A stretch of DNA of 31,976 nucleotides, taken from IMG/VR virus record IMGVR_UViG_3300013132_001932, positions 1 through 31,976 of that record. One strand, 5' to 3'. This stretch comes from a virus. The stretch's first letter is position 1; the number at the start of each line of letters is the position of its first letter. Positions 867-31,745 of the stretch are shown piece by piece. Below the pieces are notes generated by a model that did not search any database, had not been told where the DNA came from, and saw only the letters and a list, made by a program, of their open reading frames with translations. Made by a program: the position numbers and the translations under genes.

Positions 867-890
867 ATCTATTCCTTTCCTTATATTACT

Positions 891-2042: not shown

Positions 2043-2072
2043 TTAACTGCCTTTCTTACATTTAATAGTTGC

Positions 2073-2101
2073 ATTATACATGGAATTAACCAAAATGTCA
2101 A
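2073..2101 (-). promoter_or_regulatory. consensus sigma70-like promoter for the zinc-ribbon/exonuclease unit
   Basis: Minus-strand TTGACA (2096-2101), a 17-base spacer and TATAAT (2073-2078): a perfect consensus promoter. The -35 lies in the last codons of the RNase H gene. A GAAAGGC sequence upstream of the ATG at 2040-2042 could act as ribosome binding site. The spacer has no CTAAATA box. Confidence 0.8.
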
Positions 2102-3120: not shown

Positions 3121-3126
3121 GTAAAC

Positions 3127-3155
3127 ATTATACTTTCTTTTCTAATAAGTGTCAA
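3127..3155 (-). promoter_or_regulatory. consensus sigma70-like promoter abutting the RNase H start codon
   Basis: Minus-strand TTGACA (3150-3155), 17-base spacer, TATAAT (3127-3132). Only six bases separate the -10 from the ATG at 3118-3120, so the predicted start of transcription falls on or beside the A of the start codon. No ribosome binding site can fit in that space. Confidence 0.8.
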
Positions 3156-3379
3156 GAATTATTATTAATAAAATCTATTAGTGTTTGAACAGTACTATTA
3201 GGGTCAAAATCATCTGGGACTTCAACATCATATTCATGTTCGAGCCCTACAATAATTTCAATAGCAGTTAAACTATCTGCACCCAGTTCGCTCAATCTTT
3301 GTTCGTTTTTAATGTCACCAGAAGTAATATTATCAATGCTGGCAGCAATTATTTCTTTAATTTTTTGTTCCTTAGACAT
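3152..3379 (-). CDS. acpP: acyl carrier protein
   Basis: A 75-residue acidic helical protein with the phosphopantetheine attachment site in LGADSLTAIEII (Ser36), the standard DSL motif of ACP. Length, four-helix pattern and the following EHEYDVEVPDD acidic stretch match bacterial AcpP, which carries acyl chains as thioesters for fatty acid, lipid A or other acylations. It abuts the 153-residue gene upstream and is last in the FolE-MetK unit. No ketosynthase or acyltransferase is visible in the window, so it would have to work with host enzymes or a phage enzyme elsewhere. The family call is firm; the role in infection is unknown. Confidence 0.9.
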   Translation of the reverse strand: MSKEQKIKEIIAASIDNITSGDIKNEQRLSELGADSLTAIEIIVGLEHEYDVEVPDDFDPNSTVQTLIDFINNNS

Positions 3380-3840
3380 TAACTTATCTCCGTTCTTCCG
3401 TCGCCCAAATCTCGACGATTGTTATTTCTACGCTGTTCAGGATCTGCTTGGTATTGCTCGTAAGTTTCCAATGCTACATTTCGACAGATGGTTTGAAACC
3501 AGTTGTCTACAATATCAGCATCAGTTTTACCTTGATAGCCTGCGCGAACTAAATTAGCTACAAATTTATCGTTCCAATCCAACTCAAAGGCACCTTGTCC
3601 TGGGTCTTCAGGATTTAATTCCATGTTCAAAATTGACACCCACGGTTCACCTTTAGCAGTTGCCTGTGCCTTGGGGCTATCGGCTTCGGCCGCTTTAATG
3701 GCATCCTTTTTAGCTTTTGCTTCGGCACGTTTTTTGGCCTGTAGTTCTTTTTTAGCAATAGCTTCTGCTTCTGCTACAGCCTTTAATCGTGCTTCTTCAG
3801 TTCGACGTGCTTTTCCTGTGATTTTATCAAATAATCCCAT
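3379..3840 (-). CDS. conserved phage-type hypothetical protein, Ala/Lys-rich helical N-terminus
   Basis: A 153-residue protein starting MGLFDKITGKARR. Residues 15-65 are a highly charged Ala/Lys/Glu-rich helix, probably coiled coil. The C-terminal half is ordered, with WVSILNMELNPEDPGQGAFE and an aromatic, Asn/Asp-rich region. I do not recognise the family. The frame is open to 3864, but AAGGA sits just upstream of the ATG at 3838-3840 and the shorter form avoids overlap with metK. It lies between metK and acpP with no gap. The Gly-Leu-Phe start followed by a charged helix is seen in many small phage proteins and implies no function. Confidence 0.65.
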   Translation of the reverse strand: MGLFDKITGKARRTEEARLKAVAEAEAIAKKELQAKKRAEAKAKKDAIKAAEADSPKAQATAKGEPWVSILNMELNPEDPGQGAFELDWNDKFVANLVRAGYQGKTDADIVDNWFQTICRNVALETYEQYQADPEQRRNNNRRDLGDGRTEIS

Positions 3841-3841
3841 A

Positions 3842-4957
3842 TTATTCCTTGTTAAGTGAGTCAACTAAATCTGTTTGTTCCCACGGTAAATTAGCTTTAC
3901 CAAAGTGCCCGTAGTTAGTAGTTTCGCTATAGATAGGACGGAACATAGCAAATCTATTTATAATGCCTAACGGTGTTAGATCAATATTTTTACGAACCCA
4001 ATTGGTTAACCAACCGTCATCACCATGTCCGTGAGTATTAATATATAGGCTAGTTGGTTCTTTAACGCCAATAGCATAACTAATCTGTACAGTTGCTTTC
4101 TTTGCATGTCCACTAGCTACAATATTTTTCGCAAGGTATCGAGCCATGTAGGCAGATGATCTATCTACTTTAGTGGGATCTTTGCCGCTAAAAGCACCGC
4201 CACCGTGAGGGCTATAACCGCCGTAAGTGTCGACAATAATTTTACGCCCGGTAAGTCCAGTATCTCCATCAGGACCGCCAATAACAAACCTACCAGTAGG
4301 ATTAATAAGATACTCTGTGCTATCATCAAGTAGTTCTCCAGGTAAAATTGCAGTAATGTATTCTTTAACCATTCTGCGAACATTTTCAATGTCAACATCA
4401 TCGGCATGTTGTGTTGAGCAAACAATTTTAGCAATACGCTTTACTGTGCCGTCATCATTGTATTCCATAGTTACCTGTGATTTAGCATCTGGACCTAGCC
4501 ATGCTTGCCCACCTTTACGTTGGCGTGTTAGTTCTTTAACAATTAAGTGACTATAATAGATAGCACTTGGCATTAGGTCTGGCGTTTCGTTAATAGCGTA
4601 GCCAAACATTAGGCCTTGGTCACCTGCGCCAAAATGGTCAGTACCAAGAGCAATATCAGCACTTTGTCCATGTAATAGATTAGTAATATCAACAGTGCGC
4701 CAATCAAATCCAGTCTGCTCATACCCAATGTCTTTGATAACTTTACGTGTAGCACTTTCAACTTCTTCTGCATGTAAAATACCTTTATACTCACCCGCCA
4801 ACACAACACGGTTGGTAGTTACAAGTGTTTCACAGGCACAACGTTTTGCACGATCACCGTCACGCATTATTAGATCTAAAACAGCATCGCTAATAGCGTC
4901 TGCTACTTTATCTGGATGCCCTTCACTGACACTCTCGCTTGTAAAATAATAACCCAT
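3842..4957 (-). CDS. metK: S-adenosylmethionine synthetase
   Basis: A 371-residue methionine adenosyltransferase, which makes SAM from methionine and ATP. The N-terminal FTSESVSEGHPDK ATP-binding motif, GAGDQGLMFGYA in the middle and the glycine-rich GGGAFSGKDPTKVDRS loop near residues 250-270 are all present, so the three-domain enzyme looks intact and slightly shorter than bacterial MetK (about 384). AAAGGA lies about 5 bases upstream of the ATG. It shares a unit with QueE and FolE. QueE and the 11369-12388 enzyme are radical SAM proteins and 18735-19670 looks like a methyltransferase, so a phage supply of SAM makes sense. Phages more often degrade SAM than make it, which makes this noteworthy. 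Confidence 0.95.
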   Translation of the reverse strand: MGYYFTSESVSEGHPDKVADAISDAVLDLIMRDGDRAKRCACETLVTTNRVVLAGEYKGILHAEEVESATRKVIKDIGYEQTGFDWRTVDITNLLHGQSADIALGTDHFGAGDQGLMFGYAINETPDLMPSAIYYSHLIVKELTRQRKGGQAWLGPDAKSQVTMEYNDDGTVKRIAKIVCSTQHADDVDIENVRRMVKEYITAILPGELLDDSTEYLINPTGRFVIGGPDGDTGLTGRKIIVDTYGGYSPHGGGAFSGKDPTKVDRSSAYMARYLAKNIVASGHAKKATVQISYAIGVKEPTSLYINTHGHGDDGWLTNWVRKNIDLTPLGIINRFAMFRPIYSETTNYGHFGKANLPWEQTDLVDSLNKE

Positions 4958-4966
4958 ATGTTCCTT

Positions 4967-5317
4967 TTAAAAAATGTGCTGCGACAATACCATACAACTG
5001 ATCCAAACCCAAACAGTGTTAAATCCAACTAAGGTAGGAAGTAGTTTTTTATTACTAGCCCAAATAAGTGACAAGCTAGTAACTAATGTAACGAAATACA
5101 GCCACCAAATTTGTACGCTAAAAATTAGCCCAGGGACAATAATCACTGCCTTGGCTAGCCAACTAGCAAACTCAACAATGTTATAGTTTGTCCAATAGCT
5201 TTGGCGGAACCACATGCCATAGCAATTTTTGATTTTTTTAAGTCCGCTATGACTATAAGAGACGGAAATCAGCAATGACCATATTAGTGTTGCGTATACT
5301 ACTTGCTCTAAGGTCAT
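4967..5317 (-). CDS. small integral membrane protein (116 aa)
   Basis: A hydrophobic protein with three or four predicted transmembrane segments, around residues 3-22, 45-70, 72-88 and 95-113. The N-terminal part MTLEQVVYATLIWSLLISV is followed by a short basic loop and a W/Y-rich stretch (GMWFRQSYWTNYN). The frame allows a GTG at 5324-5326, but the ATG at 5315-5317 makes an ATGA overlap with queE, so I prefer it. No family recognised. The context between queE and metK does not suggest a specific job. Confidence 0.6.
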   Translation of the reverse strand: MTLEQVVYATLIWSLLISVSYSHSGLKKIKNCYGMWFRQSYWTNYNIVEFASWLAKAVIIVPGLIFSVQIWWLYFVTLVTSLSLIWASNKKLLPTLVGFNTVWVWISCMVLSQHIF

Positions 5318-6183
5318 TTGCCCCACGAATTACCCCATAAGTCTACATGTAGACGTGGACTGTAATAATAGCCACGACGCATAGCTTCATCAGCTACATT
5401 AAATTTATTGCCATCGTAAACGCTAACAACCCCACCCACTGGCATGATGTACACTGCTCCAGTAAACCCAGCTATGCGATATTGAAATACCGCCGCTTCA
5501 ACTTCTTCAAAGTCTTCTGGACGCTCAACTACAAACTTAAGATATGTAGTACCAAACTCTTGATAGCTTGTTACAATCTCTGGTTTGATAGCATCTTCCC
5601 ACTTCTCTCCACTTGGACTTAGTTTGGCACTTACACTAAATGTAATTTCACGTTCGCCACCACTTGAGTCACCATACTGCCACTGATCTAAGTATTGTCT
5701 AAAGTCCTCGCTAAGTTCTTGAGTACCGTTAGTTTCAAATGTAATGTTCTTTAGGTCACGCATTTCAATTGCTTCTAACATCTCAGGGTATACTTTTTGC
5801 CAACCTAACAATGGCTCGCCACCTGTGATAACCAAGTGTACATCATTGCCATTGTCCTGCGCCCAACGATTATTTGGGGTCAAGGCCAACATCTTACTAA
5901 TAACTTCAGATGTGTCATAGGTTGGGCTTAAACTTTTAAACTTAGGATGCCATGACGCATAGCTATCGCACCCTGTGTTGACTAATGGTAGGTCTTCGTA
6001 TGTTTTGTATAGTGTAACAGTTTTAGCAACTTCGTCTGCTTCAGTGCTAATTGTACCTCTAGGCATACCAAAACCGCTGCACGTAAAATTGCAGCCAAAT
6101 GTACGCAAGAATACACTCGGTACGCCAACAAAACGACCCTCACCTTGTGCTGAATAAAATATTTCACTAACTTTTAATTTCAT
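5314..6183 (-). CDS. queE: QueE-like 7-carboxy-7-deazaguanine synthase (radical SAM)
   Basis: Radical SAM enzyme that rearranges 6-carboxy-tetrahydropterin into 7-carboxy-7-deazaguanine (CDG). Evidence: N-terminal KVSEIFYSAQGEGRFVGVPS, which matches the QueE start; RTFGCNFTC with C31 and C35; TGCDSYASW with C72; and the SAM-binding ITGGEPLLGWQ. The usual CxxxCxxC cluster motif is split: C31-x3-C35 is followed by 36 residues before C72. The C-terminal part includes FETNGTQEL and KFVVERPEDFEEV, typical of QueE. At 289 residues it is longer than bacterial QueE (about 220-245), mostly because of this insert. It pairs with QueD and FolE in the window. Confidence 0.9.
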   Translation of the reverse strand: MKLKVSEIFYSAQGEGRFVGVPSVFLRTFGCNFTCSGFGMPRGTISTEADEVAKTVTLYKTYEDLPLVNTGCDSYASWHPKFKSLSPTYDTSEVISKMLALTPNNRWAQDNGNDVHLVITGGEPLLGWQKVYPEMLEAIEMRDLKNITFETNGTQELSEDFRQYLDQWQYGDSSGGEREITFSVSAKLSPSGEKWEDAIKPEIVTSYQEFGTTYLKFVVERPEDFEEVEAAVFQYRIAGFTGAVYIMPVGGVVSVYDGNKFNVADEAMRRGYYYSPRLHVDLWGNSWGK

Positions 6184-6335
6184 TGATAAGCCCTGTTATA
6201 TTGATTTTCAAGATAGTCTGTAGTTTCATACCCATCTAAGTATTGTAACACACTAGTAGTCTTTGTGTCAATCTTAACGTTCCCAAGGGTAGACGATCCA
6301 AACGTCTCGTTCTGCTTTGTTAATTTCTTTTGCAC
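6180..6335 (-). CDS. possible small ORF upstream of queE (51 aa, GTG start)
   Basis: An open frame from a GTG at 6333-6335 to a TGA that overlaps the queE ATG as ATGA. The product would read like a normal soluble peptide, with TTSVLQYLDGYETTDYLENQ near its C-terminus. It would overlap the phosphoribosyltransferase gene by 62 bases. The same stretch also holds a candidate promoter (6242-6271), so the two readings compete. The ATGA junction and protein-like composition are the only support. Confidence 0.3.
   Translation of the reverse strand: MQKKLTKQNETFGSSTLGNVKIDTKTTSVLQYLDGYETTDYLENQYNRAYQ
6242..6271 (-). promoter_or_regulatory. candidate sigma70-like promoter for queE
   Basis: Minus-strand TTGACA (6266-6271), 18-base spacer, TACAAT (6242-6247), located in the only gap of this unit (6184-6273). 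It would give a leader of about 50 bases before queE. The spacer lacks the CTAAATA box. It competes with a short open frame through the same bases, so confidence is moderate. Confidence 0.45.
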
Positions 6336-6810
6336 AATAATCAACCTTTCTACTAAATTTGCTACTCAGGTTATCAATTAAAACAGCGAATCGAACATTG
6401 TTACCCCAAACATCTGCCCACCGTTCGCTGTTTGGTAAGCAACTTGCTTGCCAGTCTTGAATAATCCAATCTAATGTAGCACCTGTGTCATTGATATCAT
6501 CTAAGATAAGAATGTTCTTTTGCTTGTATTCATCGTGAATAGGTCTGCCATCAAAACTACCACCGTACCCATAAGCATCCTCTGCCATCCATAAGTTGCT
6601 TTCTGTATTCTCATGATCACGTAGTTTAACTTCTAACGTGTGCATAGGAACATCTAATGCGTGACTCATCATAACCGCAGGAATTAGACCACCGCGTGTT
6701 AAGCCCACAATGTAATCTGGGCGCCACTTATCTTTAAACATTTGGAATGAGATTTTGTTTACCCATTCTTGGATTTTGATATAATCGTAATATACTTTTT
6801 CAATAGACAT
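6274..6810 (-). CDS. phosphoribosyltransferase (PRTase fold)
   Basis: A 178-residue type I PRTase. The PRPP-binding signature NILILDDINDTGATLDW spans about residues 99-115, with the two acidic residues followed by D-T-G-A-T. An upstream PDYIVGLTRGGLIPAVMMSH is the second PRPP loop. Overall it resembles xanthine/guanine/hypoxanthine PRTases, which convert free bases plus PRPP to nucleotides. It lies between FolE and QueE, and guanine salvage would feed GTP to FolE, so a link to 7-deazaguanine synthesis is possible. Substrate cannot be told from the sequence. The 5' end overlaps the preceding gene by 11 bases. Confidence 0.85.
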   Translation of the reverse strand: MSIEKVYYDYIKIQEWVNKISFQMFKDKWRPDYIVGLTRGGLIPAVMMSHALDVPMHTLEVKLRDHENTESNLWMAEDAYGYGGSFDGRPIHDEYKQKNILILDDINDTGATLDWIIQDWQASCLPNSERWADVWGNNVRFAVLIDNLSSKFSRKVDYCAKEINKAERDVWIVYPWER

Positions 6811-7126
6811 AGTCTGTGTACTCTCTTAAATTGTGTGTGTTGATTTCATCACTGAACTTCATAATAAACATTAAGGCTGTATTTGAATCTTCTTGATTGA
6901 AATTAATAATAACTTCACCGGTGCCTGTTTGCATTTTGTAACTTGGTTTAGCTCGCCCAAATTGTAATACTGTAGTCTGCTGTTCTCTACCTTTAGCATC
7001 ATACCAAGATTCTACACTGATATTTCCACCAACATGTTGCCACCAATCGATCATTTCTGGAGTAACTGCCCAAACGACAATTCTAGCATTACGGTTGATG
7101 GTAACCCCTGGCGGCAAATGTATCAT
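6800..7126 (-). CDS. hypothetical protein (108 aa)
   Basis: A soluble protein with mixed alpha/beta character and no domain I recognise. It starts MIHLPPGVTINRNARIVVWA, has a Trp-rich stretch (MIDWWQHVGGN) and ends LREYTDYVY. It sits in an ATGA-type chain between a 109-residue hypothetical and the phosphoribosyltransferase gene, so it is very likely a real gene of the FolE unit. There is no transmembrane segment. Confidence 0.6.
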   Translation of the reverse strand: MIHLPPGVTINRNARIVVWAVTPEMIDWWQHVGGNISVESWYDAKGREQQTTVLQFGRAKPSYKMQTGTGEVIINFNQEDSNTALMFIMKFSDEINTHNLREYTDYVY

Positions 7127-7455
7127 TAGCGTAGGTATTCCATGCTAACAATCTTGCCTAGGCTTTCTACTAGGTCAGCATCGTCACTGATAACATATCT
7201 GCCAATGGCTTCAGTATCACGCTTTTCATCATAACGATTGGTCTCTACAATCATACCGCCGTTGGCACCAAATACCTTAAAAGTAATTACACTACGGTCA
7301 TCGTAGTTATGTTCAACTCTACTTGTGCTACTAGATACAGGGCTAATTCTTCCACGACCACGTCTAGGATTCTCATCTAACATAATACTTTGAGCTTCGT
7401 CACGGCTGCGTGCGCGATTGTAACAACGTTGAATCCAACTATCTAACCATTTCAT
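7126..7455 (-). CDS. hypothetical protein (109 aa)
   Basis: Starts MKWLDSWIQRCYNRARSRDE, with an Arg-rich basic segment (RRGRGRISP) near residues 31-39 and a Ser-rich linker. It then has a compact beta-rich part with ITFKVFGANGGMIVETN, ending in GKIVSMEYLR. The start overlaps the folE stop by four bases (ATGA). No family recognised. The basic front end would allow nucleic-acid binding, but nothing more specific can be said. Confidence 0.6.
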   Translation of the reverse strand: MKWLDSWIQRCYNRARSRDEAQSIMLDENPRRGRGRISPVSSSTSRVEHNYDDRSVITFKVFGANGGMIVETNRYDEKRDTEAIGRYVISDDADLVESLGKIVSMEYLR

Positions 7456-8147
7456 CTTGGAGCAAACTCCTGTTGTAGTTTAATGTTGTCAAAGAACTCT
7501 TTCTTAGTATTGGGGTCAGTTTTAAATGCACCTGTTAATACTGTAGTTTGAGTTAAACTTGAATGTGCCATAATGCCACGATTCTCACAGCAACCGTGCG
7601 TTGCTTGAATATATACTGCTACGTTATTGCTGCCAGTCGCTCGACTAATCTCTCGCGTGATATCATTCGCAAGCTCTTCTTGTAGTGTACCACGGCGAGC
7701 ACACCACTGAGCAATCCGAGTGTATTTAGATAGGCCAATAAGTTTGTTAGCGGCAATAATTCCAATATAAGCGACTCCGCTGACAGGTTGATGGTGGTGT
7801 GAGCACATACTACGTAACTCGCTACGAACCACAAGCATACCTTCGTATCTATCTTCACTATCATTTGGGAAAGCTGTAGCATCAGGTGCTGGATCATATC
7901 TACCTGCCATAATTTCATTAAAGTACATTTTAGCTAGTCTGCGGGCTGTGCCGTGACTGTTAGGATCTGTTTCGCGATCAATTAGTAGTGCATCTAGTAC
8001 ACCTTCAAAGGCCTCGGTTGCTTCGTCAATTAATGCTTCTTTGTGCTCTGATGTGATGTATTCTGAGATGTTATCACCTGCCCAGAAACGTTTGTTGTCG
8101 TTTTTTAATTCACTGCGAATTGCTTCACTTACTCTGTATTTTATCAT
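7452..8147 (-). CDS. folE: GTP cyclohydrolase I
   Basis: A 231-residue GTP cyclohydrolase I, which opens GTP to 7,8-dihydroneopterin triphosphate, the first step of both folate and 7-deazaguanine synthesis. Zinc and active-site residues are in SMCSHHHQP (C115, H117, H118) and in HGCCENRG (C186/C187). The stretch IGLSKYTRIAQWCARRGTLQE is the highly conserved core of the family. Slightly longer than many bacterial homologues at the N-terminus. It leads a transcription unit with its own promoter (8192-8220), and the pathway enzymes QueE (same unit) and QueD are also encoded here. Together with DpdA this points to modified DNA bases rather than folate. Confidence 0.93.
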   Translation of the reverse strand: MIKYRVSEAIRSELKNDNKRFWAGDNISEYITSEHKEALIDEATEAFEGVLDALLIDRETDPNSHGTARRLAKMYFNEIMAGRYDPAPDATAFPNDSEDRYEGMLVVRSELRSMCSHHHQPVSGVAYIGIIAANKLIGLSKYTRIAQWCARRGTLQEELANDITREISRATGSNNVAVYIQATHGCCENRGIMAHSSLTQTTVLTGAFKTDPNTKKEFFDNIKLQQEFAPR

Positions 8148-15294: not shown

Positions 15295-16866
15295 TTATTC
15301 TCCTAGTCCTAGTTCTAAGTTATCTAAATTAGTTTCATCAAATCCGCTATCGTCAATATGATGCTCTTCAACTTCATCTGACACTTCTTCAAAGTTTGCA
15401 TGGAAATTTGTAGAGGAATTTTTAGTCTTCTTACCGGTTGCACCACGTGTACCAATAATACTCATCCAAAATTTATCGTGATGTTCGATAATTTCTTCAG
15501 CTTCTGCTTGTGTGGTCGCCGCAAATATCTGATCGACAACATCTCTAAAATAAACGCGATCAAACGTTTCTTGTACTAGCATACGAGGTACAATACCTTG
15601 ATCATATTGACGGTTAGCTTCTTGCACTGAATTAATATGGCTCCAGACATTATGACCCATTTGGATAGCATAACTAAATGAATCCCAACTAGTCTTACCT
15701 TCCTTGCCAATTTTGTTTAAATCGCCCGGTGCATAGTAGCAAACGTCATTAATGTTGATGCGGTTAGTGATAGGGCTGTCTGTAAAGTTTTCAAATACTT
15801 TATCCTGTAGTACAGCATCACTAAATTTACGATTATCTTTAGCATATTTCTTATTATCCACGCTCGGCACCATGCGATATACCCATTTTTCACGATCTTC
15901 AATTTCTGTTTGGATATAAATCTGTCCATTGGCACTGGCTAAGAATGGACTTGCGCAGTCAAAACTAATAGTAAAGTTTGGATTTACGTACTTACGTACC
16001 GCACGTTGAATATCTGTTAATAAACAAGCCCATTCTAGTTTACTTGTACCTAAGAAGTGCATCCAATCATGTATACCTTCTTGTAATAACCCATCAAATC
16101 GAATAGCTACTAGACGTTTTAAGACTAGGTGTACGTCACACATGTTCTGTCCACCCATGGCCCAACCGTTAAAGTGGCGCCCTGGATATTGTTTAGGATC
16201 GCAATACTTCTTCATGCGTTGGTACCAATCCTCGGCATCTGCATGATTTTCACCTTGTAGTACGTTTAGGAACTTACAAGCACCTGTACGATTATTAATA
16301 AACCAATCGTTGTTGATATATGTACCAGCTACTGCTTCATCGTAGGTGTTAATACCTGTGGCCGCACGTCCTGCTGGACTACGAGCCACCCAGGCTGGAA
16401 TATCTAAACACATACCATAGTCCATGTATGCGTCCATCCAAGTTAATACTAATTCGCGTTTCTTTTGTGCTTTGGGACAGTTTGGATCTTTCCAATCACC
16501 TTCCCATACACCTTTACCAATTTGGAAACCACCTGAGTCACCTAGAATAAACGATTTGCTACGGTCTCTGTTTCGCACCATATCTTCTTTTGGACTGTGC
16601 TTGTTTATGTCTAGTTCTGCGTGACCTGCTGAATACAAACTCCAATGATAGTTAAAGTATGCTGTATTTGGATTGAGCCAGTTCATGCCCTCGACACCGT
16701 GTTCAAAATTAGCTGGTACTCGTGTACTTTCTACATACGTGTTACCGTTTGCATCTGGAAAACGTTGTTTACCTACATAGGTAGCATAGAAGCCACTTAA
16801 TGCTGGTAAGAATACAGCGTAATCTTTTTGTTTACTAGTTAAATTATCTTTTGGAAAGTCCGTCAT
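15295..16866 (-). CDS. dpdA: DpdA-like DNA 7-deazaguanine transglycosylase
   Basis: A 523-residue member of the tRNA-guanine transglycosylase superfamily, most like phage and genomic-island DpdA proteins that exchange guanine in DNA for a 7-deazaguanine base. TGT landmarks in order: FILGDSGGFQIGKG with D110 (proton-shuttle Asp plus substrate pocket), CLDIPAWV with D155, NVLQGE (201-206, usual G-x-x-QGG), WAMGGQ (235-240, usual AIGGL), HFLGTSKLEW, and SFDCASPFLASANGQIY with D303 as candidate nucleophile. The C-x-C-x-x-C zinc site of bacterial TGT is not evident. A long acidic tail (residues 480-523) follows. FolE, QueD and QueE in this window make its likely base precursor. It overlaps the 63-residue gene upstream by 23 bases. 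Confidence 0.85.
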   Translation of the reverse strand: MTDFPKDNLTSKQKDYAVFLPALSGFYATYVGKQRFPDANGNTYVESTRVPANFEHGVEGMNWLNPNTAYFNYHWSLYSAGHAELDINKHSPKEDMVRNRDRSKSFILGDSGGFQIGKGVWEGDWKDPNCPKAQKKRELVLTWMDAYMDYGMCLDIPAWVARSPAGRAATGINTYDEAVAGTYINNDWFINNRTGACKFLNVLQGENHADAEDWYQRMKKYCDPKQYPGRHFNGWAMGGQNMCDVHLVLKRLVAIRFDGLLQEGIHDWMHFLGTSKLEWACLLTDIQRAVRKYVNPNFTISFDCASPFLASANGQIYIQTEIEDREKWVYRMVPSVDNKKYAKDNRKFSDAVLQDKVFENFTDSPITNRININDVCYYAPGDLNKIGKEGKTSWDSFSYAIQMGHNVWSHINSVQEANRQYDQGIVPRMLVQETFDRVYFRDVVDQIFAATTQAEAEEIIEHHDKFWMSIIGTRGATGKKTKNSSTNFHANFEEVSDEVEEHHIDDSGFDETNLDNLELGLGE

Positions 16867-22967: not shown

Positions 22968-22996
22968 AGTATATAGCTTTGTTTAAGCTAGGTCAA
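22968..22996 (-). promoter_or_regulatory. sigma70-like promoter for the dsbA/polymerase unit
   Basis: Minus-strand TTGACC (22991-22996), 17-base spacer, TATACT (22968-22973). The -35 overlaps the end of the preceding gene. The spacer contains CTTAAAC rather than CTAAATA, at the same offset as the box in three other promoters. The leader would be about 20 bases, with AAGGAG before the ATG. Confidence 0.65.
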
Positions 22997-23412
22997 GAGA
23001 TTTTGCACTTTCCGAGTATTTTTGTTGCAGTTTGAAATTCGTAAGCCAAGTCATCAAACAATCCTTCTGGCGGGTTATCTGCGTATGCGCGACTCATGTA
23101 GGCCATTTGGCCCATGTCCAAGTAATAACTTTGGCTAGGCCAACGATTGTTACCCCAACCCATGCTATTGATTAGTAGGCACTCGTCGCCAACGGATTTG
23201 AAAATTTCTTTACGAGAGCTAACTGGTAGAGATGATGCACTTAGTAAACGTAGACTAACTGGAACTGTGTTGACTTTTGGTTTGTCTATGTAGTAAGCAA
23301 ATAAGTGTACCAGATATGCTTCTAGATCATGTGGAAGATTTACAGTAAGAGAATCTTCTGCTCTTTTAATAAGCTCATAAGATTCTCTGACGTAAATATC
23401 CCAGTTGTTCAT
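22993..23412 (-). CDS. hypothetical protein after SOD (139 aa)
   Basis: Starts MNNWDIYVRESYELIKRAED. The first ten residues end in an R-E and loosely resemble the targeting peptides of the neighbouring proteins, but lack the D/E-F-L/I core. The rest is a soluble alpha/beta protein with VNTVPVSLRLLSASSLPVSS and a Trp/Gly/Tyr-rich stretch (GWGNNRWPSQSYYLDMGQMA). No family recognised. It overlaps the superoxide dismutase gene by four bases and is the last gene of the internal-protein block. Confidence 0.6.
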   Translation of the reverse strand: MNNWDIYVRESYELIKRAEDSLTVNLPHDLEAYLVHLFAYYIDKPKVNTVPVSLRLLSASSLPVSSRKEIFKSVGDECLLINSMGWGNNRWPSQSYYLDMGQMAYMSRAYADNPPEGLFDDLAYEFQTATKILGKCKIS

Positions 23413-23942
23413 AGGCGTTTGTTGATTTCGTCCCAGTTGATTATGCGCCAGATATTTTTTAAGTACTTCTTTTTATCTGCACCATAATCAGTGATCCAGC
23501 TATGTTCCCACCAATCTATCAGAAGTGCTATATCTGTACGCTTTTGGTGATTTTGTATTGTTTTGATTGTGCCAGTTTTGCTTAGATAAATCCAATAGCT
23601 ACCTTGTAACTTCATAGCTTTTTCGGCTACTTCTTCTTTAAATTCATCAAAGGACCCAAACTTACGTTCAATTAAAGATCTGATTTGACCATTGGGTTTG
23701 TTTGATGTGCGCGGTGCCCTAAACTGTGGAAAGAATAAGTTATGTAAGAACGCACCTGCGGCATTAAATGTACGATCGCCTTCGTCCTTGTTATAGCGAT
23801 CTACATACCCTTTAGCTAGTTTACCGTAGTGATTGTCAATGTTAGCTTTACTTAACACAGGTGCAAGTGCTGTCCTTGAATATGGTAAATCTACCAATTC
23901 AAGTTTTTCTTTACTTTCTGTTAAGAAATCACTTGCTCGCAT
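23409..23942 (-). CDS. sodB: Fe/Mn superoxide dismutase with probable capsid-targeting peptide
   Basis: A 177-residue Fe/Mn-type superoxide dismutase. All four metal ligands are visible: H38 in NIDNHYGKLAKGYVD, H67 in GAFLHNLFF, and D143 and H147 in LIDWWEHSWITDYG. GSYWIYL and YLKNIWRIINW also match the family. Fe versus Mn cannot be decided safely. The odd part is the N-terminus, MRASDFLTES, which is not part of the SOD fold and matches the M-R/K-x-x-D/E-F-L-x-E leader of neighbouring genes. In T4 such leaders target internal proteins to the prohead and are cut by gp21 after the Glu. The start overlaps the upstream gene by one base. The enzyme may be carried in the virion to protect the infecting genome; this is inference. 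Confidence 0.9.
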   Translation of the reverse strand: MRASDFLTESKEKLELVDLPYSRTALAPVLSKANIDNHYGKLAKGYVDRYNKDEGDRTFNAAGAFLHNLFFPQFRAPRTSNKPNGQIRSLIERKFGSFDEFKEEVAEKAMKLQGSYWIYLSKTGTIKTIQNHQKRTDIALLIDWWEHSWITDYGADKKKYLKNIWRIINWDEINKRL

Positions 23943-24910
23943 TAGCAGTTCCAGCGACGACGTGCTTTACAAATTGCCTTATCTGGAGTTTTAGCACAGC
24001 TGATATTGTGCATGTTCATTTGACCTTTTGAACGACTGCAATAGCTCTTGCGGCGTTTGCTGGCCTTACTGCCACGTTTAAGTTTGCTAGGTTTAGTAGT
24101 AACTGCTGTCTTTAGTTTGCTACCAGGATGTTCACGACGATAGGCTTTCACTGCTTTGCGGCTCATACCATCTGTGCGGTCTTTTTTGTTAGTCTTTTGC
24201 CAATCTTCCATGACCGGTGTTGTAACAGCAAACACATATAATTCGTCATCTGATAGTGATTCTAGGTCTTCCCAAATCAATTCACTATTAACACCATTGT
24301 GTTCTGCTAGACTTTCAATAATATCTTCAATAAGATCAAATTCTTCTTCCAGAGATGCTATAGCAGGACCGTCAGGTTCATGATCAACCGTAGGTTGTAC
24401 ACCTTGTTCATGTTGACTAATCATATAGTCCATAACACCAACTAACATGCCTTTTGCTGATGCAATTTTCTCTTGTACCCATTCTGGTAAGTTTTCGTTA
24501 TCTTTAATATCTCGACACAAATGAGTCATTGTACGAATAATAGTATGTAGATCATTTTTAACCATACCCGCTTCGTCATTATATTCGTTGTGATCATAAC
24601 TTTCGTTATTTGGCACACAGTTGTTTACACGAACGCCACCTTTGATCTTGGTGCCTTCTTTGTGCTTGCCCTTCCAGCATTTAGCATCTAAACGTTGTTT
24701 AACTTCGTCTAAATCAGCTGGTTTTAAGGTAACTGTGTCGGCTTTAGGATTTCCTTCTAAGCGCCATTTCTTTATTAGATTGTCGTGAGCTTGGCGAGCA
24801 TCTTTATAATAGTCAAACTTTTTCCAAGGTTTACCACCAATACATACGTAGTAGGGTTCTATTTTGTTAAAGTTTTGAGATCCTTCGTTTAAAAATTCAC
24901 TTGGTTTCAT
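23942..24910 (-). CDS. basic Cys-rich protein with probable capsid-targeting peptide
   Basis: A 322-residue multi-part protein. The leader is MKPSEFLNEGSQ, matching the targeting consensus with a predicted cut after LNE. Next come YYVCIGGKPWKKFDYYKDAR (a small domain, about 20-75), a Cys-containing basic element CWKGKHKEGTKIKGGV, an acidic helical bundle (about 110-200) with LPEWVQEKIASAKGMLVGVM, and a very basic C-terminus with SRKAVKAYRREHPGSKLKTA, two or three clusters of Lys/Arg and a final RRRWNC. These small modules recur in structural or accessory proteins of marine T4-like phages. The basic tail suggests DNA binding inside the head. The start overlaps the protease gene by 14 bases. 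Confidence 0.7.
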   Translation of the reverse strand: MKPSEFLNEGSQNFNKIEPYYVCIGGKPWKKFDYYKDARQAHDNLIKKWRLEGNPKADTVTLKPADLDEVKQRLDAKCWKGKHKEGTKIKGGVRVNNCVPNNESYDHNEYNDEAGMVKNDLHTIIRTMTHLCRDIKDNENLPEWVQEKIASAKGMLVGVMDYMISQHEQGVQPTVDHEPDGPAIASLEEEFDLIEDIIESLAEHNGVNSELIWEDLESLSDDELYVFAVTTPVMEDWQKTNKKDRTDGMSRKAVKAYRREHPGSKLKTAVTTKPSKLKRGSKASKRRKSYCSRSKGQMNMHNISCAKTPDKAICKARRRWNC

Positions 24911-25586
24911 TTGTTTTTCCTGATTTCATGTTAGCACACCAATGTGCCATTCTTTGTTTTTCACCGCTGGAATTCTTAGCGATGCTTCTTAACTTACTAA
25001 CTGACTGTTTACAGTTCACACCTGAACGTTTGGCCAGACCCTTACGTCCTGGCTTCTTACCATCAGCAAAGTTTTCGTTGGCCTTCTTCTTACGTCCAGC
25101 ACAGTGGGCTTTTTGACTAAAGCCTTTTGGGTTACTACAATTAATTGACTTCTTGTATTTCTGACTCCACTCTTCAGGCAATACCACAGGCTCAATCTTC
25201 ATGTAGTTAGGGTGTGCTTGATTAAACAAGCGCATGATAACTCCGCCTTCTGCATTAGCTTCGTCTTCTATAGGACTACCTGTGTGCCAGCTGTCTGCGT
25301 CTAAGAGATGTTCTTCACCTTGACGATAGTGTACCATTTCGTGTGCTAGGGTACGTAGTACATCAACAATGTTACGATTGTCAATGACCACTGTGATGGT
25401 CTTTGATTCATTTTCAAAACGACCAAATGTAGGTACATGAGTGTCAGATATTTCTTTGGCTAGGTGAATTTTAGGTATATGATCTAATTCTAGATGTTTG
25501 ACAGCAATAGGTAAGAAGTCACGTAGAGCATCAATGATAGTGGGCTCTGGCGGTAATTCTTGTTCAAACATCTCGTATAAGTTCAT
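24897..25586 (-). CDS. zinc metalloprotease-like protein, possible virion-internal
   Basis: A 229-residue protein with a zincin motif HEMVH at residues 82-86 in LRTLAHEMVHYRQGEEHLLD; E109 or E113 in EDEANAEGG may be the third ligand. Preceding strands TITVVIDNRN fit a minimal peptidase fold. The C-terminal third is basic and carries short Cys-containing modules: INCSNPKGFSQKAHCAGRKK, then GVNCKQSVSKLRSIAKNSSG and HWCANMKSGK. The N-terminus MNLYEMFEQE is close to, but not a perfect match of, the targeting peptide seen in neighbours. It is upstream of the basic Cys-rich gene in the same run. The target is unknown. A CTAAATACTAT late-promoter-like sequence lies about 29 bases before the start. 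Confidence 0.7.
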   Translation of the reverse strand: MNLYEMFEQELPPEPTIIDALRDFLPIAVKHLELDHIPKIHLAKEISDTHVPTFGRFENESKTITVVIDNRNIVDVLRTLAHEMVHYRQGEEHLLDADSWHTGSPIEDEANAEGGVIMRLFNQAHPNYMKIEPVVLPEEWSQKYKKSINCSNPKGFSQKAHCAGRKKKANENFADGKKPGRKGLAKRSGVNCKQSVSKLRSIAKNSSGEKQRMAHWCANMKSGKTNETK

Positions 25587-25588
25587 TA

Positions 25589-28500
25589 TTATAGCCCTGC
25601 TAGTCTGCGTATAGTATTTAGTGATTCGTTGGTTTCGCCAATTTGACGAACTTCTAAGTCACCTGCACTTAAGCCTAAATCGTGTTCCCATTGACGTGCT
25701 TTGCTTACAGCATGATCTAGGGTAGCCTGACGTATTACTGCTACAACAGATCCTGTATGCGGATTTACAATTTGGAACTCTTGTGTTCCTTGTCCTGGAA
25801 CTGCTTGTGGTTCTGGCTCATGTGCTTGCGAGTCGGGGTCATTTGATGTCACAGGATCGTCACGGTCGATTAATTCTGCTTGCTGTGCTGCTAACGGGTC
25901 TACCTCGCCTAGTCCTGGTGCTATAATGTCACCTTGCTGTGCGGCACGTGCTTGTTCACCTTGCTCGATACTACTTGCCAATCTGCGGCGGAACTCATCA
26001 TCAATTTTGTTAACGAGCTGTACACGCTGATGACTACTTAAATTCATAGTGCTATCTATATCAGCCGCTGTAGCACGAACATTACGCAAGTTAGCTGTAT
26101 CGTGTGTTTGAATATTTTGAACCCATACGTTCCACGGACGAGGCCATTCGCCTGCTTGTGCGGTTGTGCTGTTGCGACTGCGCATTTCTGCTTGGATTCT
26201 GCTGATAACTAAATCACGTTGTTCTATGCTTAGTTGTGTAGCTGACCCTGTGCCATTGGCAACATTGTCTACTACGCTTTGTAGTGTAGCCTCATTGCTA
26301 GCACTCATGCCATCTAACCATGACTTCCAACTGTTAGGTAAACTGTTAAATAATTCTTCAGCATTATCTGGCTCTGGTGTGCCTATCTGCATTGGTGTGC
26401 CAGGCTCAAAACGCAATTCACTGCCACCAACATCACCTGCCATTCTGCCTTCACCTGACGTTGCTCTATATGTTAGCTCATCGTCAACTAATTTGATTAG
26501 TAATTGTTTTTGTTCACCGGTTAAATCACCGTTATAGTCACCGTCTACGGCTTTGAGTTTAGCCTTACGCAATACTTCATCAGTGTTGCTAGGAATAACC
26601 AACAACCATGTGTTAAACGGGTTTGGCATAGCGGCGATCTTATCTTGGAAACTGCGTGGGTAAACCTTACGATTACCGTATGCTGTCATTTCGTTAGGCT
26701 CACCTTCTGTTTCACGACGTTTAAGTTCACGCTCAATAACTGCTTGTAAGAACTCGTAGTTCATAGCACTTATTTCGCTACTCATATTACGTGCCTTAAC
26801 ATTACGTAAGGCTGTTTCTAATGTACTGCGTTCTTTAGTTTTAATTTCGTTAACAAACTTGGATAAGGTGTATGTAGGTAAATCATTTACTTGACGATTA
26901 AACTCATCTGAGCTCATATCATCTAAATTAATATCTTCCGACTTCTCTTCAGCACGTAGTCGAGTAATACTTTGCTCACGACTCATGCCCATGTTCTTGC
27001 CACCTTTAAGGATGGCTTCATTTTCGTTGTTAGCGTGTACTAACTGCTTACCGCCCGAGCCATCTTTGTTCATAACCCAGTATGATTTAATCTCACTTTG
27101 TGCCTGACGCCAATCTAGTTCGCTTTGTAAGACAGCGATAGCCAATGGCACTTCTACATCCGGATCTAGCTCGTCATCATATTCACCAGCGTTAAGGGTG
27201 TTGATAGTTGACTGAAGTTCTTGATCGCTAAACGGACTCATATCTTTGAGCATTCTACGCCATTTTTCTGGCAGGCCTTCTATTTTACGTTTAACATCTT
27301 CGTCTTTGTTTAATTGTGTAACTGCGGCTTTCTTAGTTTTTTCAAGCTCACGACCTTTTTTAGCGAATTTTAGTCGAGCAACTAGATCTTCTTTAGGCAT
27401 TTCACCTATAGCATATTTGCTGAATAGCTTAACTGAGTCATCTGGATTCTTTTCTTGTTCTACTAGTTTGTATAACTTCTTAGCATACTCTTGTTTGTAT
27501 GCTTCTGGGTCTGTGGCAATACGTAGGCTCATACTTAAACGTAGGACCGTATTGATTAAATCAAATGGATTTTGGTCTAGGTAATCGCCACCTGGGCCGC
27601 GGAATTCTACGTAGTTTGATTTGGTATTGATACTGGTGTATTTGTCGGTGATACCTGAGTGAATAGTTTTACTTGCTAGACTGTTTAAGTGTTGTTTCAT
27701 CTGTGCTAAGACTGCTGGCACATCTTCTGGACGGATACGATCTTTAATCTTACTCATAGCACTCTTACAGTAGCTATTATATTCACGACCAAACTGTTTT
27801 AATACGTGTTCGTCACCTAGGAATAAGGCTAGTTTAACATAGTCTAACTTGTCAATAGTCATATCTGGCACACTGATGTTCATGTGTAGGCCAGTTGACT
27901 TATTAGTGTAGCAACCTTCTTTCTTGGCCCAAGCATACATTTTTTGTAGCATTTCTAGGCCGTCTTTAATTGGCATAGGTGGGCTGACAAACTCTAGGCC
28001 ACCATCACCTTCATCAGCATCAATGCTTGAGTCAGGCTCTACAATCCAGTTTTTTCCATCGCGACGAGCACCGTGATAGTTGTTTGATGAGTTTACATAG
28101 TCTAAGCCCATAGCACGACCGAACTCGTCTGCTACAGTTTCCACATCTAGTTCACCTTCGCCACCATAGTAACGCCAGTGTGGCCAATCTAAGCCCCATT
28201 CACGTTCTGCTTCACTCATGAAGTCAATGCCTAGATCACGCAACCACGCTTCTTGATCGTAGTCACTATCATTGCGCATTTCGTCTTCTAGCTCTTGGCG
28301 AACTTCGTCGTAGGCATATTGGTACTCACGACTGTCAGTATCTTCCATCATGTCGTCTAGAGTTTTTTCATTAAGGGCTAGTGCCATTTGATGAATTTCA
28401 TCTTCAGCTGCCTTATCTTCTGGATTTTCGTCTGGGTTATTTTCTTTCCATTGTTCCAGGGCTAACTCTTTCATATCGTCAAAGTCAATTTCACCATCTA

Positions 28501-28882
28501 GACGATCACGGATACGATCGTTTAACTCATCTTCGTCTATGTTGTCACTGATCTTTTCGCCGGTCCAATCTAGGTATTGGTTCAACATTTCTTCGCGTAG
28601 GCGTCGAGCACTACTTGGTCCTAGGTTTGACATTTCACCGTTACTAAAGAATTCTATAATGTCATCTATGCTGTAACAGCGTTCGTCCATGTCATAGTCA
28701 TATTCACCTTCGCCACTGTCGTCATCTACGGCAACATTGGGCACCACGAGTTCAAATTCTATTCCCATCAACATTCCGTCAGCTTCCGGGCTGTTGGCGA
28801 ATTTTTGTAAGGCACTGGGTGACATCTTGACTTCATCAAGAACTTCTTCACTTAATAATGGTTTTATTTGTTCGTATCGCAT
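25589..28882 (-). CDS. giant amidoligase-like protein with five C-terminal repeats
   Basis: A 1097-residue protein, the largest in the window. Residues 38-460 resemble the Amidoligase_2 family (glutamine-synthetase/ATP-grasp-like ligases that form amide bonds): GIEFELVVP (40-48), WIVEPDSSID (279-288), GGLEFVSPPMP (294-304), STGLHMNISVPD (329-340) and NYVEFRGPGGDYL (423-435). A long acidic insert (50-270) interrupts the domain. Residues 537-967 carry five copies of a ~55-residue repeat with P-x-x-W-x-x-W/F-L-x-x-I/M near its start and L-x-x-x-Q-x-x-L-x-x-x-I-x-x-E-x-x-x-R at its end. Two further short modules (600-645, 1036-1080) resemble each other. I took the ATG at 28880-28882 (MRYEQIKPLLSEE) because the upstream frame to 29011 is inside the homing endonuclease gene. 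This N-terminus also looks like a targeting peptide. Confidence 0.7.
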   Translation of the reverse strand: MRYEQIKPLLSEEVLDEVKMSPSALQKFANSPEADGMLMGIEFELVVPNVAVDDDSGEGEYDYDMDERCYSIDDIIEFFSNGEMSNLGPSSARRLREEMLNQYLDWTGEKISDNIDEDELNDRIRDRLDGEIDFDDMKELALEQWKENNPDENPEDKAAEDEIHQMALALNEKTLDDMMEDTDSREYQYAYDEVRQELEDEMRNDSDYDQEAWLRDLGIDFMSEAEREWGLDWPHWRYYGGEGELDVETVADEFGRAMGLDYVNSSNNYHGARRDGKNWIVEPDSSIDADEGDGGLEFVSPPMPIKDGLEMLQKMYAWAKKEGCYTNKSTGLHMNISVPDMTIDKLDYVKLALFLGDEHVLKQFGREYNSYCKSAMSKIKDRIRPEDVPAVLAQMKQHLNSLASKTIHSGITDKYTSINTKSNYVEFRGPGGDYLDQNPFDLINTVLRLSMSLRIATDPEAYKQEYAKKLYKLVEQEKNPDDSVKLFSKYAIGEMPKEDLVARLKFAKKGRELEKTKKAAVTQLNKDEDVKRKIEGLPEKWRRMLKDMSPFSDQELQSTINTLNAGEYDDELDPDVEVPLAIAVLQSELDWRQAQSEIKSYWVMNKDGSGGKQLVHANNENEAILKGGKNMGMSREQSITRLRAEEKSEDINLDDMSSDEFNRQVNDLPTYTLSKFVNEIKTKERSTLETALRNVKARNMSSEISAMNYEFLQAVIERELKRRETEGEPNEMTAYGNRKVYPRSFQDKIAAMPNPFNTWLLVIPSNTDEVLRKAKLKAVDGDYNGDLTGEQKQLLIKLVDDELTYRATSGEGRMAGDVGGSELRFEPGTPMQIGTPEPDNAEELFNSLPNSWKSWLDGMSASNEATLQSVVDNVANGTGSATQLSIEQRDLVISRIQAEMRSRNSTTAQAGEWPRPWNVWVQNIQTHDTANLRNVRATAADIDSTMNLSSHQRVQLVNKIDDEFRRRLASSIEQGEQARAAQQGDIIAPGLGEVDPLAAQQAELIDRDDPVTSNDPDSQAHEPEPQAVPGQGTQEFQIVNPHTGSVVAVIRQATLDHAVSKARQWEHDLGLSAGDLEVRQIGETNESLNTIRRLAGL
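25608..25621 (-). promoter_or_regulatory. T4 late-promoter-like sequence before the metalloprotease gene
   Basis: On the minus strand CTAAATACTATACG (25608-25621) is close to the T4 late promoter TATAAATACTATT. It lies in the last codons of the amidoligase-like gene and about 29 bases upstream of the protease ATG. Because it is within a coding sequence it could be chance, but the spacing is right for a late gene and no sigma70-type promoter is seen nearby. Confidence 0.4.
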
Positions 28883-28898: not shown

Positions 28899-28943
28899 AT
28901 AGTGTAGTTCGCGATATTGGAGTATCCAACTACCCTAATACTG

Positions 28944-28951
28944 TTAAGGAG
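28944..28951 (+). promoter_or_regulatory. ribosome binding site of the homing endonuclease
   Basis: TTAAGGAG on the plus strand, with 10 bases to the ATG at 28962-28964. It decides between this ATG and an upstream TTG at 28917, which has no such site. GGAGTATC occurs twice here, at 28919-28926 and 28948-28955. Confidence 0.6.
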
Positions 28952-28961
28952 TATCAGCTTT

Positions 28962-29585
28962 ATGTTATTTATCACAAATAAGTATACCACTTGGTATAAT
29001 AATATTGTCAAACACGCACAAGAACGAACACTATCTGAAGGTATCTATGCTGAGAAGCATCATATCATACCCAAGTCTATGGGAGGAAATGATAGCAAAG
29101 ATAATCTTGCTCGCTTAACAGCAAGAGAACATTTTATCTGTCATTGGCTCTTAACTAAAATGACCACAGGCGAAGCAAAACATAAAATGATATATGCGGC
29201 TTGGTCTATGGTAAGAAAAGGTAGAGGACAAGAACGATACAAGATGACTAGCAGGACATATGAGTCATTGAGAAAACAACTTTCTGAAACTAAACGAGGA
29301 AGAACGCCTTGGAACAAAGGCAAAACATACTCTGAAGAGAGCAAAGCAAAAATGTCCGCAGCTAAGAAAGGAAAAAGCATACCGTGGAACAAAGGACTAA
29401 CGGGTGTATTCTCTCACAGTGAGGAGTCCAGACAGAAAATGTCCAATACACAAAAAGGTCGTGTATTCTCAGATGAGCATAGACTAAAACTTTCGTTAGT
29501 CCAAAAAGGTAAACCTAAGTCAGAAGAAACAAAAAGAAAACTATCTGAAATTAATAAGGCAAAAGCTGCCGCAAAGAAATTATAA
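28962..29585 (+). CDS. HNH homing endonuclease with NUMOD3 repeats
   Basis: A 207-residue free-standing homing endonuclease, the only plus-strand gene. The HNH nuclease is N-terminal: YAEKHHIIPKSMGGNDSKDN then LARLTAREHFICHWLLTKM, the typical form in T4-like phage mobile genes. From about residue 95 there are four or five short Ser/Lys-rich DNA-binding repeats of the NUMOD3 kind (for example SEESKAKMSAAKKGKSIPWN, HSEESRQKMSNTQKGR, SDEHRLKLSLVQKGK, KSEETKRKLSEINKAK). The enzyme would cut related phage genomes lacking it and spread by repair. It sits between the ParB-like and amidoligase-like genes and does not split a visible gene. Composition and strand unlike its neighbours indicate insertion. 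Confidence 0.92.
   Translation: MLFITNKYTTWYNNIVKHAQERTLSEGIYAEKHHIIPKSMGGNDSKDNLARLTAREHFICHWLLTKMTTGEAKHKMIYAAWSMVRKGRGQERYKMTSRTYESLRKQLSETKRGRTPWNKGKTYSEESKAKMSAAKKGKSIPWNKGLTGVFSHSEESRQKMSNTQKGRVFSDEHRLKLSLVQKGKPKSEETKRKLSEINKAKAAAKKL
28966..28973 (-). promoter_or_regulatory. late-promoter-like GATAAATA for the amidoligase-like gene
   Basis: GATAAATA on the minus strand within the first codons of the endonuclease gene, about 84 bases upstream of the amidoligase-like ATG. It mirrors the plus-strand box at 28891-28898, so the two genes may be driven by divergent, overlapping late promoters. Confidence 0.35.
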
Positions 29586-29665: not shown

Positions 29666-30424
29666 CTATTGTGTTGATTGTACTACTTGTTTGTATTGCT
29701 CTTTAATCTTTTGTATCCTAGGTAAGAATTTACTTTTACCTTCATCATTTAGGTATTTCTGTAGTCTAGGTTCAATATACTTTAACATGTCGTAGACATA
29801 TTTTAACAGCACAGGAATAACTTTGGGATTCTTGTAAAACGCAGGTTCATTATAAACTTCAACAAATGTTCGTCCGTTCACGATAGGTTGTTTGAACTGT
29901 GCTTGTATTACCTTGAGTTCTTGTATAGCTGTTTGGTCTACAGCATAATCGTGTATACGAGCAGTATTCATAGTGATAAAGAAGCCAAAGTCTGCTAATA
30001 GGTTGGTGTAACCTTGTAGGTCTATGCTTTCAGTTAAGGATTCTGTTATTTCTTCGTAGGGCACATAAGCTGGTATGTGTGTCATACCACTTAATTTTGC
30101 AGCCATGGCACGATGGTTACCATCAATAATATAACCATCTAGGTCTACGACAATAGGTTTGTTTTTAATTTCGTGTTGACTAATAGTCATAACGTGATCC
30201 ATGTCTACGTCTAGGATGCGATTGTATGGATCTTCAATATAAGCATCTTCACTTTCTGGGTCCGCTATTTGTAGTTTACTAATGGGATAGTTTATTAACT
30301 CCCACGCCTCATGATTCATAATGCTGTGATCTACACTACCTGACCAGTCTGGGTGTATCTTTTTAACATATCGCAAGACTTGGCTGTTAGATAAATTTTC
30401 AAGTATAAAGTCTTTAGCTCTCAT
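29666..30424 (-). CDS. ParB/Srx-like protein with probable capsid-targeting peptide
   Basis: A 252-residue protein. MRAKDFILENLSNSQ fits the targeting consensus with a likely cut after ILE. Residues about 75-120 hold a ParB/sulfiredoxin-type core: KPIVVDLDGYIIDGNHRAMA, with the D-G-N-H-R-x-x-A signature, then a G-M-T-H-I-P-A-Y-V strand. In ParB-family proteins this site binds nucleotides or cuts DNA. The second half (about 125-252) is helical, with a long amphipathic C-terminus. It starts two bases after the stop of the 439-residue gene, so the two are co-translated. Being in the virion block it may act on host DNA after entry; that is inference. Confidence 0.72.
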   Translation of the reverse strand: MRAKDFILENLSNSQVLRYVKKIHPDWSGSVDHSIMNHEAWELINYPISKLQIADPESEDAYIEDPYNRILDVDMDHVMTISQHEIKNKPIVVDLDGYIIDGNHRAMAAKLSGMTHIPAYVPYEEITESLTESIDLQGYTNLLADFGFFITMNTARIHDYAVDQTAIQELKVIQAQFKQPIVNGRTFVEVYNEPAFYKNPKVIPVLLKYVYDMLKYIEPRLQKYLNDEGKSKFLPRIQKIKEQYKQVVQSTQ

Positions 30425-30425
30425 A

Positions 30426-31745
30426 TTAGTGTATTGGGTACTCTTTGCGTTGTCCGTCTTTTTGCGTGTAGAGTAGGCTTACGTCCCACTGCCCGTCACG
30501 TTTCTTGATGTAGATGTGATCGTTGATCCACTCTGCTACGCCACCATCACCCTCGTTGCGGTTGTTAGTCTGTTCAACGGCATAGGCCATAATTTTATCA
30601 AGGTCATCAATGCCCTGTGTATCAGCACCCCATTCACGACCTACTTCCTCTGCTAGATTGCGTACTTCCTGTGGAGATAGATCCACAGCACCAACTATTC
30701 TACCAATGTAGTCACTGGCTTCATAATTCCAATCGGTGTAGGTTAAATCAGCATCAGAGACTTTGTCCCAATCGATCTGACCTTCTTCTTCATGTCCTTC
30801 AGGGTAGACATAACCTTCTTTGCGTAGGTACTCATACCAGTAGTCGTCTTCTATTTCCCATTCGCTGACCTTTTCATGTACATGGTCATTGATTGCTGTC
30901 TTAATCTTAGCAATCAAAGGTTCTAGTATTTCATCTGGAGTAAACACCAGCCAATCGTTGATCTGCGGTTCACGCTCACGGAAGAAGTCTACTAGATTGC
31001 CAAAACGCATGTCTAATAGTTCTATAACATCATCTACGTTGCGATCCTGCTCATCCATGAACTGGCCACTAGGGAAGTGTAGTTGATACTTCTCACCTTC
31101 ATACTGGGGCTGTTTAGGCAGTAGGATGTATAACGGGCCGTCTTTGCTGTAACTATTAAAGTAGTTGGTGCTTTGTGTACTGGCTGTACACCATGTGGTG
31201 CCCTGGCCATAATAGCAGGCTGCAGCTTGGTCTTTAGGGATAATGATGCGAACCTTGTCGTTTTCAAATACCTGTTCAGCATCACCCTTAGGCATGGCTT
31301 TTTCTTCTGCTTGTTGGATTCGCATTTGGAAGTCAGCACGTATGCTAATTTCCCATAGGTCTTTCCAAGCTAGGTTCATGATGTTAGCCAACTTGCTGTC
31401 ACGGTCTTTAAAGAACTTTTTCTTTTTATACAGGTCGTACTTCTGTAACCATTCTGTAGTCTTACTCACAAGGTCTTCCATCATAACGCCTTCGTTGGCG
31501 TAGACTTTGGCTAACCATTGTACGTATTCTTTATTAGCAGTGGGATCAGCACTTTCTAACATGGCCATAACACGATTCAGTACTTCTGTGTTGGTATTTG
31601 GGTCTGGTATTTTAAGAATATCTTTTAACATACCTATTCTACTATCAACACTGCGATCGTTGACTAATGCGGCCAAGAGTTTCTTGCCAAAGACCGTGGC
31701 TGTCTTTTCACGGCTGTATTCTCTTAAAAAATCACGAGCTCTCAT
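30426..31745 (-). CDS. GxGTxWCTAS-motif protein with probable capsid-targeting peptide
   Basis: A 439-residue protein. The leader MRARDFLREYS fits the targeting consensus (cut after LRE). Residues 15-150 are helical. A conspicuous motif, YGQGTTWCTAS (179-189), is followed by NYFNSYSKDGPLYILLPKQP and by YQLHFPSGQFMDEQ, a pattern I have seen repeated in uncharacterised phage proteins (G-x-G-T-x-W-C-x-x-x...N-x-F-x-x-Y...G-x-L-Y/F). The Cys could be catalytic. The last third is acidic and Trp/Tyr-rich, ending KRDGQWDVSLLYTQKDGQRK. No enzyme name is justified. It overlaps the partial gene upstream by an ATGA junction. Confidence 0.65.
   Translation of the reverse strand: MRARDFLREYSREKTATVFGKKLLAALVNDRSVDSRIGMLKDILKIPDPNTNTEVLNRVMAMLESADPTANKEYVQWLAKVYANEGVMMEDLVSKTTEWLQKYDLYKKKKFFKDRDSKLANIMNLAWKDLWEISIRADFQMRIQQAEEKAMPKGDAEQVFENDKVRIIIPKDQAAACYYGQGTTWCTASTQSTNYFNSYSKDGPLYILLPKQPQYEGEKYQLHFPSGQFMDEQDRNVDDVIELLDMRFGNLVDFFREREPQINDWLVFTPDEILEPLIAKIKTAINDHVHEKVSEWEIEDDYWYEYLRKEGYVYPEGHEEEGQIDWDKVSDADLTYTDWNYEASDYIGRIVGAVDLSPQEVRNLAEEVGREWGADTQGIDDLDKIMAYAVEQTNNRNEGDGGVAEWINDHIYIKKRDGQWDVSLLYTQKDGQRKEYPIH

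Follow-up and report, generated by a model that had tools for sequence, protein, structure and literature searches.

A superoxide dismutase with a predicted T4-type head-targeting leader in phages

We analyzed a virus record of 31,976 bases, hereafter called the window (the whole stretch of DNA), which encodes a superoxide dismutase (SOD) with a short N-terminal leader. We put the chance at about three in four that a cleavable T4-style leader carries this enzyme into the prohead, and that the enzyme stays in the head and is injected together with the DNA. The predicted packaging in the head, which a preliminary description had offered as a guess, is strongly supported by the gp21-type site in almost all distinct phage leaders, the lack of such a leader in cellular SODs, the gp21, gp23 and gp20 genes of relatives, the same tag on unrelated neighboring genes, and an 'ESI-MS/MS' note on the homologue from phage PA5oct. 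Because its front end is the type of cleavable tag that T4 uses for head loading, the SOD of these giant T4 relatives is probably shipped in the particle and injected.

The SOD gene, its fold and its occurrence in phages

The SOD gene and the other window genes with leader-like starts are listed in Table 1. In the ORF reading of the window, the ATG of the SOD gene overlaps the stop codon of the upstream gene. Both Pfam domains scored above the cut-off (Sod_Fe_N, 7.8e-10; Sod_Fe_C, 8.4e-23), and a Foldseek search with an AlphaFold2 model of the protein (30 related sequences as input, mean pLDDT 93) returned Fe/Mn SODs. The two domains, the fold, the ligand set of three His and one Asp, and Tyr34 place the protein in the Fe/Mn SOD family (SodFM). 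The four metal ligands stand where the preliminary description had located them and are invariant in an alignment of 30 phage SODs, as are Y46, the catalytic Tyr34, and W145-E146 of the WEH motif. The same description held that the leader is not needed for the fold and proposed a structural prediction for residues 1-10; in the model, residues 1-8 are the only stretch with pLDDT below 50 and lie outside the SOD fold, the remainder being modeled with confidence.

Table 1. Features of the SOD gene and of window genes with leader-like starts (a slash marks the putative cut)
Feature	Position	Strand	N-terminus or leader	Remarks
Fe/Mn superoxide dismutase gene, 177 aa	23409..23942	-	N-terminal leader	ORF, Pfam, model, Foldseek
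SOD leader, residues 1-9, proposed capsid-targeting propeptide	23916..23942	-	MRASDFLTE	L-T-E/S gp21-type site; predicted cut after E9
Predicted mature SOD, residues 10-177	23412..23915	-		ligands H38, H67, D143, H147
Neighbor with basic C-terminal DUF6321 domain	23942..24910	-	MKPSEFLNE/G	domain also in cyanophages
Protein with HExxH-like motif	24897..25586	-	MNLYEMFEQE	weak leader candidate
Amidoligase-like protein	25589..28882	-	MRYEQIKPLLSE/E	looser leader; Pfam Amidoligase_2 7.9e-12
Protein with weak ParB-like nuclease similarity	29666..30424	-	MRAKDFILE/N
Protein with no function assigned	30426..31745	-	MRARDFLRE/Y
Downstream gene overlapping SOD	22993..23412	-	MNNWDIYVRE/S	weak leader candidate; fails strict pattern

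Cellular Fe/Mn SODs (for example 1qnn, 1ues and that of P. gingivalis) share the fold, the ligands and Tyr34 with the phage form but lack the leader, whereas the phage form has a shorter loop and a shorter chain, Leu at the His30 position (L42, in 30 of 30 aligned phage SODs) and His at the Gln143 position (H132), both positions having been matched by eye. These two replacements and the short chain could be taken to mean that a weak or inactive SOD has been kept for DNA binding or core building, as an internal protein of the head. We regard this as very improbable, since Tyr34, all metal ligands and two residues of WEH (Trp and Glu) are invariant, and since archaeal SODs among the top Foldseek matches likewise have His at the Gln position.

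Among the structure matches, an uncultured Caudovirales SOD (A0A6J5L7W0), which exists as a database entry only, is 62% identical to the window SOD; we know of no functional or virion work on it. Another uncultured phage protein in BFVD (A0A6J5L953, 501 aa) combines an SOD domain with a long extra part. A near-identity search of the window against phages gave no match. SOD genes had been described as rare in phages, which holds for isolates, where they are found mainly in the PA5oct group and Vibrio phage 2.275.O, but not for metagenomes: a scan of IMG/VR with the SOD alignment identified at least 598 contigs that encode relatives. The best 80 of these are all of the same phage type as the window, and phages with this SOD are thus not rare in metagenomes.

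The leader and its cut site in phage and cellular SODs

The window SOD begins MRASDFLTE/SKEK. For comparison, we collected 84 SODs from phage contigs (the best 80 of the at least 598 contigs, together with earlier loci), which carry 72 distinct leaders. The motif [LIVMF]xE is kept in 71 of these 72, a count that does not represent 71 independent events because the leaders share descent; shuffled leaders had the motif in a mean of 28.7 and a maximum of 44 cases. Position P3 is Leu or Ile in 67 leaders (54 and 13, respectively), and the residue after the motif Glu is mostly Ala (27), Ser (16) or Gly (9). Leader positions outside the motif vary freely, as illustrated by MRDIIDLLE/E, MNIRDTINLIE/A, MYNFIKSLNE/G, MAFKFIQNFIVE/G and MEKSLSDLKRLVIE/A, and in one locus (L126) the motif is placed later than in other leaders. 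In the 30-sequence alignment, E9 is as invariant as the metal ligands.

The first ligand His follows the start by 37 residues in the window SOD and mostly by 37-46 residues in the phage family, compared with a median of 26 residues in the 71 cellular SODs measured, which start about 11 residues later; the motif occurs in only four of these 71. The leader is therefore not an ordinary part of bacterial SODs; the preliminary description had named the opposite result as one that would refute head packaging. That the leader reflects chance or a misplaced start codon is an explanation we consider extremely unlikely. A TTG at codon 16 offers a downstream start in the window, but relative L002 has no such alternative, and close relatives of 81-85% identity retain both the ATG and the leader, whose codons differ mainly by synonymous changes. 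We rejected the start-codon error on these grounds.

Cleavage by the T4 protease gp21 follows the Glu of L/I-X-E, and ten N-terminal residues of internal protein IPIII are enough for head entry (PMC9026906). The N-terminus of T4 IPIII is MKTYQEFIAE/ASVV, and its leader core EFIAE/A can be set beside DFLTE/S of the window SOD. The conserved L/I-x-E followed by Ala, Ser or Gly in phage SOD leaders is, as judged from the sequences, the T4 gp21 prohead-protease rule. The SOD leader has the features of a T4-type capsid-targeted protein, as it is short, lies outside the mature fold and ends in a gp21 site.

The SOD of Vibrio phage 2.275.O (L042, 7995-8564) lacks the N-terminal leader, though the head type is the same, which speaks against the packaging reading. 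Its C-terminus reads KMLDE/SVNIRHLINFISK, an L-x-E site followed by an amphipathic-looking tail, as if the tag had moved to the other end of the protein. C-terminal cleavage has precedent in T4, where it occurs in Alt and gp21 (PMC9026906).

Head genes, virion proteins and tagged neighbors

Each of the four SOD contigs between 189 and 355 kb has a T4-type gp23 gene, and three of them also have gp21, the fourth contig ending at gp23. The 189-kb contig G001, with an SOD 85% identical to that of the window, matches the Pfam models of gp23 (E = 5.5e-96), gp21 (8.6e-29) and gp20 (5.9e-103). Both gp21 and gp23 were found in G008 (321 kb) and G010 (355 kb), whereas G009 (354 kb) has only a partial gp23 at the contig end. 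In the shorter SOD contigs, which are fragments, a search for gp21 and gp23 found neither; the window has no head genes and is too short to hold them. The capsid-protein propeptides appear to follow the same cleavage rule as the SOD leader, with the ends KHLME/T in G001, QLSE/S (KQLSE/S) in G008 and KYLAE/S in G010, the site being assigned by position relative to T4 SFLTE/A. Short ORFs of G008 (209020-210673) and G009 (151784-153707), about 5 kb from the SOD, also weakly match parts of the gp23 capsid model.

The PA5oct homologue, EST35_0261, is 43.6% identical to the window SOD and has the leader MNDSIKKYISIAE/A (site SIAE/A), and the capsid proteins of PA5oct and G001 share 65% identity, which places the two phages in the same capsid lineage. 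The depositors named this SOD hypothetical, not structural, and gave it an 'ESI-MS/MS' note. Since such notes also cover cytosolic enzymes (ribonucleotide reductase, thymidylate synthase, FtsH and ClpP), the SOD could be carry-over, and we consider the note supportive of virion presence, not proof. A small protein encoded directly after the PA5oct portal gene begins MKINDIITE/G and is also noted 'ESI-MS/MS'. Virion mass spectrometry of phage MIJ3 was limited to major bands, from which four structural proteins are given; an SOD is not mentioned.

We then compared virion proteomes using a pattern fixed before they were viewed, [LI]xE followed by A, S, G or T near the protein start. In phage CBB, whose virion proteins (Table 4 of PMC5259590) were assigned to genes by hand from annotation tables, 5 of 14 pattern genes were virion-detected versus 50 of 540 others (p = 0.008). 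The enrichment in PA5oct is weak (6 of 92 detected versus 5 of 160 undetected proteins, p = 0.17), and the combined p value for the two phages is 0.008. The association of a generic LxE leader with MS detection in PA5oct alone was not significant.

Within the window, the strict leader motif occurs at the starts of 4 of 44 genes versus 0.1 expected (0 of 2000 shuffles). The four tagged genes, encoding the SOD, the DUF6321 protein, the ParB-like protein and the function-unassigned protein, have unrelated content, lie within 23.4-31.7 kb and show the tag form M..[DE]F[LI]xE or near it. Relatives of the amidoligase-like protein have the leaders MRYSQIKQALRE/A and MRYKQIKTLTE. By eye, the start of the HExxH-like protein resembles the MNLFEILE start of a protein beside the portal gene in G001. 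A leader scoring matrix applied to whole contigs had high background and separated poorly from shuffles in G001, G003 and G010; its use was confined to G007, G008 and the window.

Two further observations on the window were made by eye. An HNH-type homing-endonuclease-like ORF lies at 28917-29585 on the plus strand, opposite to and between two leader-bearing genes. Translations of 303-8147 and 15295-16866 include 6-carboxytetrahydropterin synthase-like, QueE-like, GTP cyclohydrolase-like and TGT/DpdA-like products; these genes of the queuosine or 7-deazaguanine type suggest modified DNA.

Gene neighborhood, proposed mechanism and known systems

An A-type Fe-S carrier gene (PF01521) was found nearby downstream of the SOD gene in 40 of about 77 loci, usually as the next gene, and an IF-1-like gene upstream in 30. 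In loci L059-L132, the SOD gene often lies between these two genes, which are followed by tail- or baseplate-like genes, and an IscU-like ORF was noted by eye downstream of the SOD gene in locus L008. The adjoining Fe-S carrier suggests protection of Fe-S chemistry. Together with the IF-1-like neighbor, it also favors the main competing explanation, in which an auxiliary SOD acts in the cytosol during replication and shields ribonucleotide reductase as well as Fe-S proteins of the phage, with a leader that has another purpose, such as stability or a docking helix. The position of the PA5oct gene among proteostasis genes (ClpS, ClpX, FtsH, ClpP and heat-shock genes), in which it differs from the window gene, points the same way. 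We judge this explanation unlikely, as it accounts neither for the invariant L/I-x-E in an otherwise freely varying leader nor for the same tag on unrelated proteins; the cytosolic and packaged roles are, moreover, compatible.

Under the preferred head-packaging reading, the leader would bind the SOD to the prohead core, and a gp21-type protease would cut after L-T-E during capsid maturation and free the enzyme. The freed SOD would then stay within the head, surrounding the DNA, and enter the next cell together with it, as expected by analogy with T4. It may act there in the first minutes by removing superoxide near the incoming DNA or Fe-S enzymes; blunting of a host response, as suggested in the preliminary description, would be another possible role.

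The closest known counterparts are T4 IPII and IPIII, which likewise have a short N-terminal propeptide (10 residues in T4) with an acidic-hydrophobic-hydrophobic-x-E core and a gp21 L/I-x-E site, and whose type of head genes is present in relatives of the window phage. The phage SOD differs from them in that the protein carried is a metal enzyme whose fold is known, its leader is one residue shorter, and its loading and cutting are predicted only. PBCV-1 packages a Cu/Zn SOD1 (A245R) in its virion, where it is thought to lower superoxide during infection (PMC7019647). Both SODs are virus-encoded and located in the particle, by prediction for the window phage; the PBCV-1 enzyme has an unrelated Cu/Zn fold, belongs to a eukaryotic virus and has no cleavable tag described in that paper.

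An SOD and a head-targeting leader are each of a known kind. The open-access main texts that we searched describe neither a phage SOD with such a leader nor its broad distribution or the conservation of its cut site, and relative to these texts all three are new. It can be speculated, with somewhat less than even confidence, that an active SOD is present in the heads of a large and so far unrecognized group of giant phages related to T4, that the same cleavable tag loads other proteins, such as the amidoligase-like and ParB-like ones, and that the injected SOD disarms an oxidative or Fe-S-based entry block.

If head packaging is true, phages would have an equivalent of the SOD that PBCV-1 packages in its virion, and oxidative chemistry would have a role in the first minutes after a phage infects its host. 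The N-terminal motif could then serve as a predictor of injected proteins in uncultured giant phages, which are usually known from proteomics alone.
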